Shown here: positions 1,245 to 12,025 of the stretch, in pieces | Layout of the letters: each line of letters begins with the position of its first letter | Numbering within the stretch: position 1 is the stretch's first letter | Notes under the pieces: model-generated | Databases searched by the model: none | What the model was told of the DNA's origin: nothing | The model's input: only the letters and a program-made list of their open reading frames with translations | Position numbers and translations under genes: made by a program | From: Planctomycetota bacterium | GTDB lineage: Bacteria; Planctomycetota; UBA8108; UBA1146 | Length of the DNA: 33,759 bases | Assembly (NCBI GenBank): GCA_012960845.1 | Contig: DUAN01000038.1 | Coordinates: 9,320 to 43,078 of the forward strand | Direction: 5' to 3'

Positions 1245-3533
1245 GTGAGTTTTGACATCTCAGCAATCCCTGATCTGATCGGACGATTCCACCCGTTGAT
1301 GCTTCACTTTCCCCTCGGGCTGTTGCTCTGGGCGGGGGTTCTCGAAGGGGTCCACCTGCTTCAGCGCCGGCCGATCCCGCCGACCGGCCCGGTCTCGCTT
1401 CCGATGGTGATTCCCGGCGCAGCGTTTGCGGTGCTGGCTTCACTCTCTGGCTGGTTGCTGGCGAATCCAGAGGATCCAGATACCGCACTGGCCTGGCACC
1501 GTTGGCTGGGGATCGGCACCACTTTCCTGGCACTGGTTACCGCGGGTGTCGGAATCGCAGTGCTTCGAGGTCGTGAGGTGGCGAGCCCGGCGTACCGATT
1601 GTCACTCTTTCTGTGCATCCCGATCCTCGCAGCGGGAGGGCATATCGGTGGCGAGATGAAGTGGGGCGAGGGTTTCGTCGAGGAGGGCTTCGAAAAAGTC
1701 TTTTTTGCGGGCCAGGGGGATGACGATCGGGAGAGGAACTCACTGACCCAGGTCAGCATCGATGCTCCGCAGGAGCAGCGGGGTTTGCTGCTGTACCATC
1801 AGAAAGTGAGAGGGATCCTCGATCAACATTGTGTTCCCTGTCACGGCCCGGAAAAGGTCAAAGGGGAACTCAGACTCGACACTCCCGATGACCTCAAGGA
1901 TCGACAGAGGGAGATTCCTCTGATCGTTCCGGGGGATCCGGACAATAGCTTGCTGGTCGAACTATTGCTGCTCCCCGCTGACGATGAAGATCGTATGCCG
2001 CCGCCGGATGAGCCGGCGCTGACCGAGCAGCAGCGCCGCAATCTCGTCGAGTGGGTGCGGGCGGGGGCTCCTTGGCCCGCACAAGGGCCAAAGGGGCTGG
2101 TCGGGGTTGCCGGTCCAGTCGGGTCACCCGGTGCCGTCGGCATCTCGGGCGGCGCCCAGGATCCTGTTCCAGCGGAAGAGGAAGAGGAAGAAGAAGATGC
2201 TCCGGATGAGGAACCGACCGGAGAAGATGGCTCCGATCCGCCACCGGAAATACTGCACTTCCAGCAGAAGGTGATGCCATTGTTCGAGCGCCACTGCCTC
2301 GAGTGCCACGGCTCGGAGAAACAGAAAGGTAAACTGCGGCTGGATCTGCGGGCCGAGGCATTCAGTGATCGCGAGTACCCGACCATCGTTCCTGGGAATT
2401 CTCAGGAGAGCGAGTTGATCGAGCGGGTCTCGTTGCCCGACGACGATGAGGATCGGATGCCGCCCGATGGAGATCGTCTGACCGGGGAGGAATTGGCACT
2501 GCTGCGCGACTGGATCGACCAGGGCGCTTCGTGGCCAGAAGATGAAGCGGTCGATGTACCGGTGCCGCCCGTCGGTGAGGCGGGAGTGTCGCAGGTACCC
2601 TCCAGAACTCCCGGGCAACTTCCGGACATGCCTCTCATCCGAATCGAGGATGAAGAGATCCGATCTGCAGTGGCTCGGTCGGTTTCCACTCTGCAGGCGT
2701 CCGGTGTTCGTGTCGCACCGATCTCTCGCATAGATGATGCGCATGAGGCGGTCTTTCGTCTGCTGCGAAAGGGCGCCTCCGACGAGATGGTGGCGCAGCT
2801 TGCAGGACTGGAACCAGTGCTGACTCGACTCGATCTGGCTGGAACATCGGTGACCGCCCGGTCGATTCGAGGATTGTGGAGATTTGGCAAGATTCGCGTG
2901 CTCAACCTGTCGGAAACCGTGGTGGGGGATGACGAGGTGGCGATTCTTGCGAGCCTGCCCGACCTGACGGTGTTGAATCTGTTCGGAACCGAGGTGACCG
3001 ACGATTGCCTGGCACTATTCGAGCGGATGCCCGCATTGCGAAGGGTTTATCTGTGGCGAACTGCGGTCACCCGGTCTGCCGTCGGCAAACTGGCCCTGAA
3101 ACGTCCCGACCTGCTGATCAATATCGGTGTCAACGAGGGTCCCAAGCGGATCAAGGCAAAGGTCGAGGTGGAAACCAGTGGGATCTGGCCCGGGAGAGAA
3201 GCGGAACTGGCGCCTGAACATGTTCATGACGGATCCGTCGAGACCATCTGGGCCGGTCCAGAGGAGGAGAGAAGTGGCTGGGTCCAGTTGACCCTGGAAG
3301 AGCCACAGGTGGTGGTCGGTGTACGTCTCGATGAGGGCCAATTCCCGAGGATCCAGAAGTTCTCGGTCGAGGTTCAGGACGATTCAGGTTGGGTGGAACT
3401 GGCCAGCGGAACTACCATCGGTTCAAAGAAGGAGCTGCTGTTCGCTGCCCATCTGGCGAAGGTGATTCGCATCAAGATTTTGGAAGCGGTTGATACGCCG
3501 GTGATCGCCGAGTTCGATCTGCTGGTCGATTAG
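1245..3533 (+). CDS. Membrane-anchored protein with two planctomycete-type cytochrome c domains, LRRs and a C-terminal discoidin-like domain
   Basis: A GTG start at 1245 is preceded by GGAGG with 8-nt spacing. The 762 residues run as follows. Residues 1-135 hold about four membrane segments beginning RFHPLMLHFPLG (DUF2231-like). A first heme domain has CVPCH at 196-200 and DRMPP at about 249. An acidic, Gly/Pro-rich linker (poly-Glu near 311) leads to a second heme domain with CLECH at 351-355 and DRMPP at 403. Leucine-rich repeats cover about 525-620 (LTRLDLAGTSVT, IRVLNLSETVV, LTVLNLFGTEVT). The last ~120 residues look like a discoidin/F5-8C beta-sandwich (VHDGSVETIWAG...SGWVQLTLEEP). In this family CxxCH binds heme covalently, and the DRMPP Met is a plausible axial ligand. 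A membrane-bound electron-transfer or sensing protein with an extracytoplasmic binding domain is inferred; the partner is unknown. It converges on the next gene with a 4-bp overlap. Confidence 0.85.
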   Translation: MSFDISAIPDLIGRFHPLMLHFPLGLLLWAGVLEGVHLLQRRPIPPTGPVSLPMVIPGAAFAVLASLSGWLLANPEDPDTALAWHRWLGIGTTFLALVTAGVGIAVLRGREVASPAYRLSLFLCIPILAAGGHIGGEMKWGEGFVEEGFEKVFFAGQGDDDRERNSLTQVSIDAPQEQRGLLLYHQKVRGILDQHCVPCHGPEKVKGELRLDTPDDLKDRQREIPLIVPGDPDNSLLVELLLLPADDEDRMPPPDEPALTEQQRRNLVEWVRAGAPWPAQGPKGLVGVAGPVGSPGAVGISGGAQDPVPAEEEEEEEDAPDEEPTGEDGSDPPPEILHFQQKVMPLFERHCLECHGSEKQKGKLRLDLRAEAFSDREYPTIVPGNSQESELIERVSLPDDDEDRMPPDGDRLTGEELALLRDWIDQGASWPEDEAVDVPVPPVGEAGVSQVPSRTPGQLPDMPLIRIEDEEIRSAVARSVSTLQASGVRVAPISRIDDAHEAVFRLLRKGASDEMVAQLAGLEPVLTRLDLAGTSVTARSIRGLWRFGKIRVLNLSETVVGDDEVAILASLPDLTVLNLFGTEVTDDCLALFERMPALRRVYLWRTAVTRSAVGKLALKRPDLLINIGVNEGPKRIKAKVEVETSGIWPGREAELAPEHVHDGSVETIWAGPEEERSGWVQLTLEEPQVVVGVRLDEGQFPRIQKFSVEVQDDSGWVELASGTTIGSKKELLFAAHLAKVIRIKILEAVDTPVIAEFDLLVD

Positions 3534-8928: not shown

Positions 8929-9888
8929 ATGCCGAAAATCCCATCTCAGTGCTCTCGTTCCTTCACTTCAATTGTGGTGCTTCTCATCACTATTGGAATC
9001 TCCCTGCCACTTCTGGCAGATTCACCGAAGAGGTCCAGCTCAAATGCGCCGGTCGATGCCCCTGACTCTGCCAGGAGTTTGCGGGATGCGGTCGTCAAGT
9101 TGGAGGCTGCTTGCCGGCGCAAAGGCTACCAGATGCAATGCAACGTCTGGGGAGGGCTCTCCAACAAGGCAGATCACAAGGTCTGGATGCATCAGGTCTA
9201 TGAGGAGCATGAAGGCCAGGTTCTCGGGGCGCTGATGTACTTGCCGGGATTGTCGATCTATCGTAATCGAGAACGCGGTGCGATTTTCATCGATGAGCAA
9301 TGGAAGCCGATGATCTCCGATCCTGCTGGCCACCGGGTGCAGAGGATCATCGCCTTTCCCGGGCAGGTGCTGTTCGACGCACTCTCGAGCAAGAAAAAGG
9401 TCGAGTGGATCGAACCTTCAAAACTGATCGACAGCGACGATCCCGATTACATCGAACCGATGGATGCGCCACTGGAGCCGGGCGAAGAGGGGGATACCGC
9501 TGTCGTCGAGAAGAAACAGCCGAGCTACCGCAGGGTCAAGGTGGAGGTGAGTGAGAAGGTCGCTGTTCGATACTTCAATCAGATCCAGAACTCAGGATTG
9601 CTCGGTGGTTTCAGCTGAAGCATCACCAAGTTCCTGTCCAGTGTGGACAGGACCCGTACTCGCTGCAGCGTCGAGGTGGGGATCGATCCCCAGACCGGGC
9701 TCCCCGATCAACTGTTGATGACGATCCTCATCGGCAGGAAGAACCTCGAGGGGAGCACCATCTCGGCGGACCGGGCATTTTCTGACGGAGTCGAACACAT
9801 CGTCTTCAATTATTCCTACCAGCTCGATTCTTCCGAGCCCGTGGAGGCGTTTCAGATTCCACCTCAGGCAAAAAAACTGCTGAGGTGA
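8929..9888 (+). CDS. Exported protein of unknown family, paralog 1, with in-frame UGA (candidate selenoprotein)
   Basis: The frame runs from ATG 8929 to the TGA at 9886-9888 and is interrupted only by a TGA at codon 230 (9616-9618). Read through, the product is 319 residues. It has a signal peptide (hydrophobic SIVVLLITIGISLPLLA, cleavage near residue 31). Shared paralog motifs are KGY near 125, GG.S followed by DH (SNKADHK), a G.LMYLP block, FPGQVL and VEWIEPS. After the UGA come exactly 89 residues that align without gaps to paralogs 2 and 3, including DRT.TR, DPQT, F..GVEH, VFNYSYQLD and a C-terminal P..AKKLLR. The C-terminal half recalls LolA/LppX-type beta-sheet lipoprotein-binding folds, a weak guess. 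A GTG at 9643 could start a separate ORF but has no ribosome site. A 9632-9652 hairpin follows the UGA. If terminated at the UGA the product would be 229 residues. Confidence 0.75.
9616..9652 (+). promoter_or_regulatory. Candidate bacterial SECIS element in paralog 1 (UGA plus hairpin)
   Basis: The in-frame TGA (9616-9618) is followed after 13 nt by a perfect 8-bp stem, TCCTGTCC (9632-9639) with GGACAGGA (9645-9652). It closes the 5-nt loop AGTGT, which can tighten to a GTG triloop. Bacterial SECIS elements lie in the coding region just after the UGA, with a small apical loop carrying a G in its first two positions, read by SelB. Position and loop fit this. Function is inferred. Confidence 0.6.
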
Positions 9889-10082: not shown

Positions 10083-10961
10083 ATGACGAAATCACACAAC
10101 TCGACGACACAGAATTCGACGACACAGAACTCGATGAATCGGTACGAACCCCACTGGTGGACGACTGGGCGCTGGACGGCGCTGGTGGTCGGAATCCTCT
10201 TCATCTCGCCTGCTGTCATGGCGGCCGAGGAGTCTCCACGGAAAGCGCTGGTCCAGGTGACCAGAAACCTGGCACAGATGGCCAGTGAAAGTGGATACCG
10301 AACCGATGTTGCCATTATCGGTGGGGTCAGTTCCGCTTCCGATCACAGCGTCGAGATCCCCAAGTACCTGCGAAGGGCTCGGGCCCATGTACGAGGAAAG
10401 GTGATGCACCTGCCCGAGCACAGCGCCTACCTGTACTGCGGCAAGGTCGCGATCGAGGAGGAAGGGGTCTGGATGAAACCGGGCACCAGTCGTCTCGGGC
10501 GAGAGATCGCAGGGATGTTTGAAGTCCCCACCGACCTGTTGACGAACGCCTTCCAGAGAGGGAGCCGGATCGAGTGGGTGGCGAATCGAATCGAGACTCG
10601 CAAGGCGATCAAGGTAGTTCTGCCAGCGAGTCAGTCGAGGGCTCGCTTCAGCGGAATCGACAGGTCTGGTTGTGTTGCCGCCGAGGGAAGGAGACTTTCC
10701 TACTTCCAGTCCAGGTTGGAGCGGTCCAATACCCAGACCACCATCATCATCGATCTCGATCCAGCAGGGGCACTGCCGCAAAAGATCCAGATCGAGGTCT
10801 TGGGAGCGTACAGGGATGAACATGGCCGCTCTCGCAAGGGACAGCTGGCGTTCGAGGAAGGAACCAACCATGCGGCGTTCCATTTCATCTACTGGCTCGA
10901 TACCAGCGCAGCGGTCGGGCAGTTCAAAGTGCCGCAGAAGGCACAGAGATTGCTCAAGTAA
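10083..10961 (+). CDS. Exported protein of unknown family, paralog 2 (uninterrupted)
   Basis: ATG 10083 has GAAAGGAGG with 6-nt spacing. The 292 residues begin with an unusual ~28-residue Asn/Ser/Thr-rich extension containing a tandem repeat. A signal sequence follows (WTALVVGILFISPAVMA, cleavage near residue 47). It shares the family pattern with its neighbours: SGY near 71, GG.S..SDH near 80-88, G.VMHLPE near 106, a W near 130 and RIEWV near 162. From residue 203 to the end are exactly 89 residues, alignable without gaps to the post-UGA parts of paralogs 1 and 3 (DLDP, AFEEGTNH, FHFIYWLD, P.KAQRLLK). At the position of their UGA it has Arg203 (AGG, 10689-10691), and the conserved hairpin is missing. 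It is the internal control showing that the full-length form is about 290-320 residues. No function can be assigned. Confidence 0.8.
   Translation: MTKSHNSTTQNSTTQNSMNRYEPHWWTTGRWTALVVGILFISPAVMAAEESPRKALVQVTRNLAQMASESGYRTDVAIIGGVSSASDHSVEIPKYLRRARAHVRGKVMHLPEHSAYLYCGKVAIEEEGVWMKPGTSRLGREIAGMFEVPTDLLTNAFQRGSRIEWVANRIETRKAIKVVLPASQSRARFSGIDRSGCVAAEGRRLSYFQSRLERSNTQTTIIIDLDPAGALPQKIQIEVLGAYRDEHGRSRKGQLAFEEGTNHAAFHFIYWLDTSAAVGQFKVPQKAQRLLK
10098..10134 (+). repeat. 15-bp in-frame tandem repeat at the 5' end of paralog 2
   Basis: Two copies of a 15-bp unit (10098-10112 and 10113-10127, one mismatch) and a 7-bp partial third copy encode NSTTQ-NSTTQ-NS. The repeat lies before the signal peptide. 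Its length in whole codons means copy-number change would alter only the leader length. Confidence 0.8.
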
Positions 10962-11125: not shown

Positions 11126-12025
11126 GTGAACAAGTTCATCTTCGTGCTGTTTTCAGGATGGTTGCTTTCAGCAGTGATGCTGGCCGGAGTTGGACTCCAG
11201 GCGTCAGATCCACCAGGGGAAAAGGCTCCCGATCCTGCCAAGGCCCTCAGGAAAGTCAGCAAGGACTTCTTGCGGCATTCGAGCAAGAGCGGCTATTCCG
11301 CACACCTCGTCATCGCCGGCGGCATGGCGAACTCGAGTGACCACAAGATCATCGATCAGGCGGTCAGCGAGGATTACTTTGGCCTGATCCGGGGTCCCCT
11401 GATGCACATGCCGGAACAACAGATCTTCCGCACCCTCGACAAGGGCGCCCAGTTCGATGGCGATATCTGGCGGGTGCTCCAGTCGACCGCGGATGGCAAG
11501 AAACTGGATCGGCTCTTCACCTTTCCCGAGAGATTGCTGGCCGATGCCAGCAGCAAGGGCAGCAAGGTCCAATGGCTCGAATCCACGGTCAAGCCGCGCA
11601 AGGTCAAGAGAGAAGCACCACTCGGCGGAACTGCGGTTGGATCCTCTGAACAGGCGGAAATGGTCTACCATCGCCTGCGGGTGACACTGCCCGACAAGAT
11701 GGCACTGCAGTACTTCATCGAGGTCCAGAATTCAGGTTGTCTGTCTGGCGGCTGATGTATTTCTGAATACCTGTCCCGTGCGGACAGGACCCAGACTCGC
11801 AGCGTGCTCGATATCGACCTGGATCCACAAACGATGACTCCTCGTAAGATGGAACTGCTGGTACTCACGGGGATGCGAAATGCCGATGGTAAGACCGCCA
11901 AGGGGGATGCTGCATTCTCCAAGGGAGTCGAGCATGTCGTGTTCCGCTATGCGTACGAGATCAACTCCGAGGAGCAGGTCGACCCCTTCAAGATTCCGGG
12001 TGCTGCGCGCAAGTTGATGCGATAA
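11126..12025 (+). CDS. Exported protein of unknown family, paralog 3, with in-frame UGA (candidate selenoprotein)
   Basis: A GTG start at 11126 is preceded by AAAGGA about 7 nt away. The frame runs to TAA at 12023-12025 with one in-frame TGA at codon 210 (11753-11755); read through, the product is 299 residues. It has a signal peptide (FIFVLFSGWLLSAVMLAGVGLQA) and the family motifs SGY, AGG.A..SDHK, G.LMHMPE, FPERLL and KVQWLES. Just before the UGA is NSGCLSGG, and the codon after it is TGT, so a read-through product would have Sec next to Cys. The following 89 residues match paralog 1 at about 40 positions without a gap (LS.ADRTQTR, LDPQT, AFSKGVEHVVFRYAYEI, A.KLMR). A GTG at 11804 has no ribosome site, which argues against a separate downstream gene. 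It ends 26 bp before a strong terminator. The biochemical role is unknown. Confidence 0.75.
11753..11789 (+). promoter_or_regulatory. Candidate bacterial SECIS element in paralog 3 (UGA plus hairpin)
   Basis: The in-frame TGA (11753-11755) is followed by a perfect 7-bp stem, CCTGTCC (11770-11776) with GGACAGG (11782-11788), loop CGTGC. Stem start, loop and distance from the TGA match the paralog 1 element base for base in position. The loop again has G second and a central GTG. Function as a SelB-binding SECIS is inferred. Confidence 0.6.

Follow-up and report, generated by a model that had tools for sequence, protein, structure and literature searches.

Paralogous genes with an in-frame UGA codon

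We analysed a stretch of 33,759 nucleotides from a Planctomycetota bacterium (assembly GCA_012960845.1, contig DUAN01000038.1, positions 9,320 to 43,078 of the forward strand), hereafter the window, which belongs to a marine draft genome of 3.3 Mb (G000). It holds three paralogous genes, P1, P2 and P3, with the following features (positions are those of the window).

8929-9888, + strand: P1 (paralogue 1), candidate selenoprotein gene; apparent true stop TGA at 9886-9888
9616-9618, + strand: putative selenocysteine (Sec) codon TGA of P1, in the aligned column shared with P3
9633-9651, + strand: putative SECIS hairpin of P1; stem 9633-9639 with 9645-9651, 7 bp, loop AGUGU
10083-10961, + strand: P2 (paralogue 2), Sec-free; frame uninterrupted, AGG (Arg) at the Sec column, hairpin down to 5 of 7 pairs
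11126-12025, + strand: P3 (paralogue 3), candidate selenoprotein gene; GTG start, TAA stop at 12023-12025, 299 aa
11753-11755, + strand: putative Sec codon TGA of P3, in the motif C-LSGG-U-C
11770-11788, + strand: putative SECIS hairpin of P3; 7 bp, loop CGUGC

Translation of P3 gave 209 residues, a lone TGA, a Cys codon (TGT) and then 88 codons up to the TAA, in agreement with a sequence-only reading of this DNA, which had described this TGA as the only stop in the frame and the Cys codon as its direct neighbour. Both P3 and P1 have a single in-frame TGA, which a hairpin of 7 bp follows at 14 nt; P2 lacks the codon as well as the hairpin. The N-terminus of P3, judged by eye, resembles a signal peptide. 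Since P1 also ends at a TGA (9886-9888), which we take to be an ordinary stop, UGA would mean both Sec and stop in one message. Elsewhere in the window, the protein encoded at positions 1245-3533 (762 aa) contains domains of the planctomycete cytochrome c (PSCyt1) and galactose-binding types.

A conserved hairpin behind the UGA

In P3 the stem CCUGUCC (11770-11776) is fully paired with GGACAGG (11782-11788) and closes the loop CGUGC, with G second, at the same distance from the TGA as in P1, just as the sequence-only reading had it. The predicted energy is -11.9 kcal/mol (z -3.7), and none of 200 shuffles was as good. Published limits for bacterial SECIS elements are a loop of 3-9 nt, a stem of 4-16 bp, G in the first two loop positions, a distance of 16-37 nt from the UGA and a minimum free energy of -7.5 or lower (PMC13188914); the P3 hairpin lies inside all of them (loop 5 nt, 7 bp, G second, 21 nt from UGA to loop, energy as above), and so does that of P1. 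Among 43 distinct sequences, 95.7% of the hairpin cells are paired, compared with 29-43% in slid registers, 18 cells have changed on both sides and the covariation score is 0.151, values that neither measure reached in 500 shuffles. The clearest case is the second pair (19-35), where C-G and U-A replace each other; the first position of a Leu codon (CTG/TTG) is thereby tied to the second position of an Arg (AGG) or Lys (AAG) codon, so that the choice of the basic residue seems to be steered by the RNA. In Sec-free members the hairpin is degraded, with 2-5 of 7 pairs left.

When the 3.3-Mb genome was searched with a covariance model of this region, the hairpins of these two genes scored 72.5 and 67.7 bits and the next match 14.9 bits (E = 8); as the model was trained on 43 sequences that include P1 and P3, its informative part is that the genome holds no further matches at meaningful scores. 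Over 29 genomes of the class it matched solely inside family genes. An Rfam search of the window gave no match.

Selenium decoding in the genome and gene neighbourhood

A search of the genome for SelB and tRNA-Sec, proposed in the sequence-only reading as a check, recovered both, and SelA and SelD besides. The genome has a tRNA-Sec with anticodon UCA, SelB (395 bits), SelA (527 bits) and SelD (343 bits); selA, selD and the tRNA-Sec gene follow one another on one contig (C104), and selB lies on a different one. The selD gene (L136:1501-2424, G000:C104:17999-18922) itself has an in-frame UGA at the known Sec site, CAG-U-AAK, with its own hairpin behind, which implies that the Sec pathway is in use. 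SelD is thus like P1 and P3 in being UGA-encoded with a hairpin and in sharing their decoding machinery, but it is an unrelated protein and its hairpin has a different sequence (loop GGUCG). SelB scored above the cut-off in 29 of the 31 family-bearing genomes versus 79 of 117 others (Fisher p = 0.003, indicative only, the genomes being related). The two family-bearing drafts that lack it over the cut-off (G001 and G023) probably owe this to assembly gaps, because their congeners carry SelB.

In a relative of another taxonomic family (G024) the order on one strand is selA, selD, a gene of 247 aa, the family gene and tRNA-Sec (L139:3194-11414, G024:C21), a cluster which is a direct genomic link of the family to selenium; no NCBIfam model matched the 247-aa gene. 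Within the family-level group of the window, an outer-membrane efflux-type gene stands on one side of the genes and valS on the other. The P1-type gene is followed in one genus, after about 12 nt, by the start of a gene for an RtcB-type RNA ligase (L056:5858-7252, L060:4711-6105, L144:4071-5465), and the two likely form an operon there. We found no gene partner conserved across the phylum: apart from the sel cluster of G024, the neighbours vary in distant relatives.

Distribution and phylogeny of the family

With a profile built from the three paralogues, homologues turned up in 31 of 148 relatives; with a broader profile, they turned up in 37 of 392 genomes drawn from across Planctomycetota, one of the 37 (G231) being marginal. 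Nearly all full-length matches in both searches have exactly one stop, a TGA. The claim of the sequence-only reading that the TGA of P3 occupies the position aligned with that of its paralogue extends to the family, for 51 of 59 aligned members have TGA at one identical column. Genomes with the family have 1-2 Sec copies. As far as named records show, the members all come from uncultured draft genomes, and the relatives are mostly labelled as Planctomycetota metagenome-assembled genomes. The in-depth search covered this one phylum; a pattern scan run once over all GTDB species gave Planctomycetota and records labelled 'Bacillota', and tblastn against plasmids gave no family match. One record with the latter label, L052 (QNYK01000097.1), is probably mislabelled (compare G003:C23, placed in the genus of the window).

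The motif around the Sec position is S-G-C-x(4-5)-U-[GCTS], with C-x4-U in 37 of 51 members, C-x5-U in 9 and the upstream Cys missing in 5 (P1-type). The sequence-only reading had pointed to the Sec-Cys pair as a redox-active arrangement. That pair is present in P3, but it is lineage-specific, occurring in 14 of 51 members (the P3-type clade and close kin), with mostly Gly, Thr or Ser after Sec elsewhere, whereas C-x(4-5)-U is common to 46 of 51; to judge by the alignment, the conserved partner of Sec is the upstream Cys and not the following one.

The 8 Sec-free members branch at two points within the Sec members of a maximum-likelihood tree, one being the P2 clade and the other a G016 copy, which is most simply read as two losses of Sec. 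P2 would be a paralogue that has lost both Sec and hairpin. The other loss left the sole Cys-bearing member (1 of 59; L081:301-1149, G016:C234), in which a TGC stands one residue off the Sec column next to a local insertion, the hairpin is lost, and an intact Sec copy stands beside it in the same genome; no other case of Cys in place of Sec turned up in the genomes searched. The sequence-only reading had also counted P1 and P3 as two genes that independently keep an open frame beyond the UGA. This part did not hold, because the two are paralogues of a single ancestral selenoprotein.

Sequence searches and predicted fold

Searches of Pfam, NCBIfam and PDB sequences, including the NCBIfam models of known selenoproteins (listed in PMC13188914), gave no coherent match for the family. 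No model matched more than 1 of 29 members, and the strays, such as CobT or MCP_Sipho in one member each, were weak and unrelated; LolA, LppX_LprAFG and MucB models or chains gave no sequence match. AlphaFold2 models, with Sec entered as Cys, had high confidence both for P3 (pLDDT 91.8, pTM 0.87) and for a distant member about 22% identical to it (pLDDT 89.2, pTM 0.86). In both, the residues after Sec, including three long main strands, lie within one compact model, so that a product stopping at the UGA would be without much of the fold. The C-x4-U loop is predicted to join two helices and to sit where the second, short one begins.

With Foldseek, the P3 model matched LolA, LprG and ApoB-type lipid binders, and the top ten matches of the distant member's model were all LprG, LolA or LprF. 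These half-barrel matches (3mh8, 6f3z, 4qa8, 7z6w and others) had E-values of 8e-6 to 3e-4 and a probability of about 1, with low TM-scores of 0.25-0.46 and 8-13% identity. The models thus suggest a fold like that of the periplasmic lipid carriers LolA and LprG, as a fold-level lead, and given these TM-scores and identities a lipid-carrier role is suggestive at most. The family would resemble the LolA, LprG and LprF (LppX-type) carriers in being apparently exported and in the predicted half-barrel, but it differs in its extra segments and Sec loop and showed no sequence similarity to them in these searches, and carrier activity would be a structural guess.

Alternative readings of the UGA

If the UGA were a real stop, the stretch behind it would be a gene of its own or left over from a pseudogene. 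TGA does serve as an ordinary stop in this genome, as at the end of P1, and some members have in-frame GTG or TTG codons after the UGA which could serve as starts. However, the comparison of selection before and after the UGA that the sequence-only reading had suggested gave dN/dS of 0.06-0.29 after it and mostly 0.06-0.21 before it (related pairs where it was computable), which is purifying selection of much the same strength. We found no conserved downstream start with a ribosome-binding site, and a Shine-Dalgarno-like motif precedes the commonest candidate restart in just 1 of 51 members. Moreover, 51 members keep TGA, and not TAA or TAG, at its column across deep divergence, one continuous fold is predicted across it, and the Sec-free paralogues translate straight through as a single chain. 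A true stop is therefore extremely improbable. It is also very improbable, if slightly less so, that the UGA is decoded as another amino acid, by near-cognate readthrough, a suppressor tRNA or a tRNA-Sec charged with Cys or Ser. The inserted residue cannot be told from sequence, but the genome has the complete canonical Sec pathway, its SelD is also a UGA protein at a classic Sec position, the hairpin keeps within the bacterial SECIS limits and disappears together with the UGA, and in one of the two lineages that lost Sec a Cys came to stand beside the Sec position (L081).

The hairpin might in turn be a by-product of protein conservation with no RNA signal, as its stem lies inside a conserved coding motif (L-S-R-x-D-R/K) and 3 of its 7 pairs are invariant across members. 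Against this, 6.70 of 7 pairs are observed in the 43 distinct sequences, compared with 3.93 +/- 0.20 when synonymous codons are randomised with the protein fixed (the best of 2000 draws reached 4.53), and the compensatory exchanges join a Leu codon position with a Lys/Arg codon position. The hairpin codons show 0-2 silent changes between species, whereas silent sites elsewhere differ widely and are often near saturation. We consider it next to impossible that protein conservation accounts for the pairing.

A probable family of exported selenoproteins and its proposed mechanism

The decoding genes, the conservation and covariation of the putative SECIS hairpin, the constancy of the codon, selection, phylogeny and predicted structure all agree, and for this reason we hold it highly probable that P3 and P1 encode members of a previously undescribed family of bacterial selenoproteins. 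By inference, insertion of Sec at the UGA is near-certain, in line with the proposal of the sequence-only reading that this codon is read as Sec. By the standard bacterial route, of which the parts are conserved here, SelB with Sec-tRNA-Sec would bind the hairpin 14 nt past the UGA and insert Sec rather than allow termination. The full-length protein would be exported via its signal peptide and is predicted to fold as a LolA/LprG-like half-barrel, with Sec in the loop before the short helix and the conserved Cys 4-5 residues upstream. This Cys/Sec pair probably cycles between selenolate/thiol and selenenylsulfide. As to function, we guess, tentatively even though we see no likelier role, that the protein serves in thiol/selenol redox chemistry or repair in the periplasm, and that it acts on a lipid or other hydrophobic ligand in the half-barrel or has its activity gated by one.

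The family shares with the known SelB/SECIS-dependent selenoproteins the in-frame UGA, a hairpin within published limits, SelA, SelB, SelD and tRNA-Sec in the genome and a Cys near Sec, but it differs from them in having no sequence relation to the NCBIfam selenoprotein models or to Pfam families. A 2026 review tabulates 119 bacterial selenoprotein families or subfamilies and describes most characterised selenoproteins as thioredoxin-like (PMC13188914), in contrast to the LolA/LprG-like fold predicted here. The literature covered, mainly freely available journal papers, yielded no planctomycete or LolA-like selenoprotein beyond a list of candidates in two isolates (PMC4807772), and that list may overlap the family. 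The authors of deep-Sep state as a limit of their method that Cys homologues are required (PMC12013277). As Cys forms are nearly absent here, searches that rely on Cys/Sec pairs would tend to miss the family, which suggests that further Sec-only families are hidden. Because standard annotation ends at the UGA, public records probably give the members in truncated or split form.

Our results would add to the known bacterial selenoproteins a family on a scaffold unlisted among them, apparently extracytoplasmic and conserved from deep in Planctomycetota. We regard it as possible, though rather doubtful, that this is an ancient, almost purely Sec-dependent exported family of LolA/LprG-like proteins, a non-thioredoxin class that combines selenium chemistry with the scaffold of a lipid or lipoprotein carrier. 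If so, selenium might serve, for example, in the reduction of oxidised envelope lipids or in the gating of cargo by a selenenylsulfide, and the family raises the question of why an exported, lipid-carrier-like protein should use selenium instead of sulphur.
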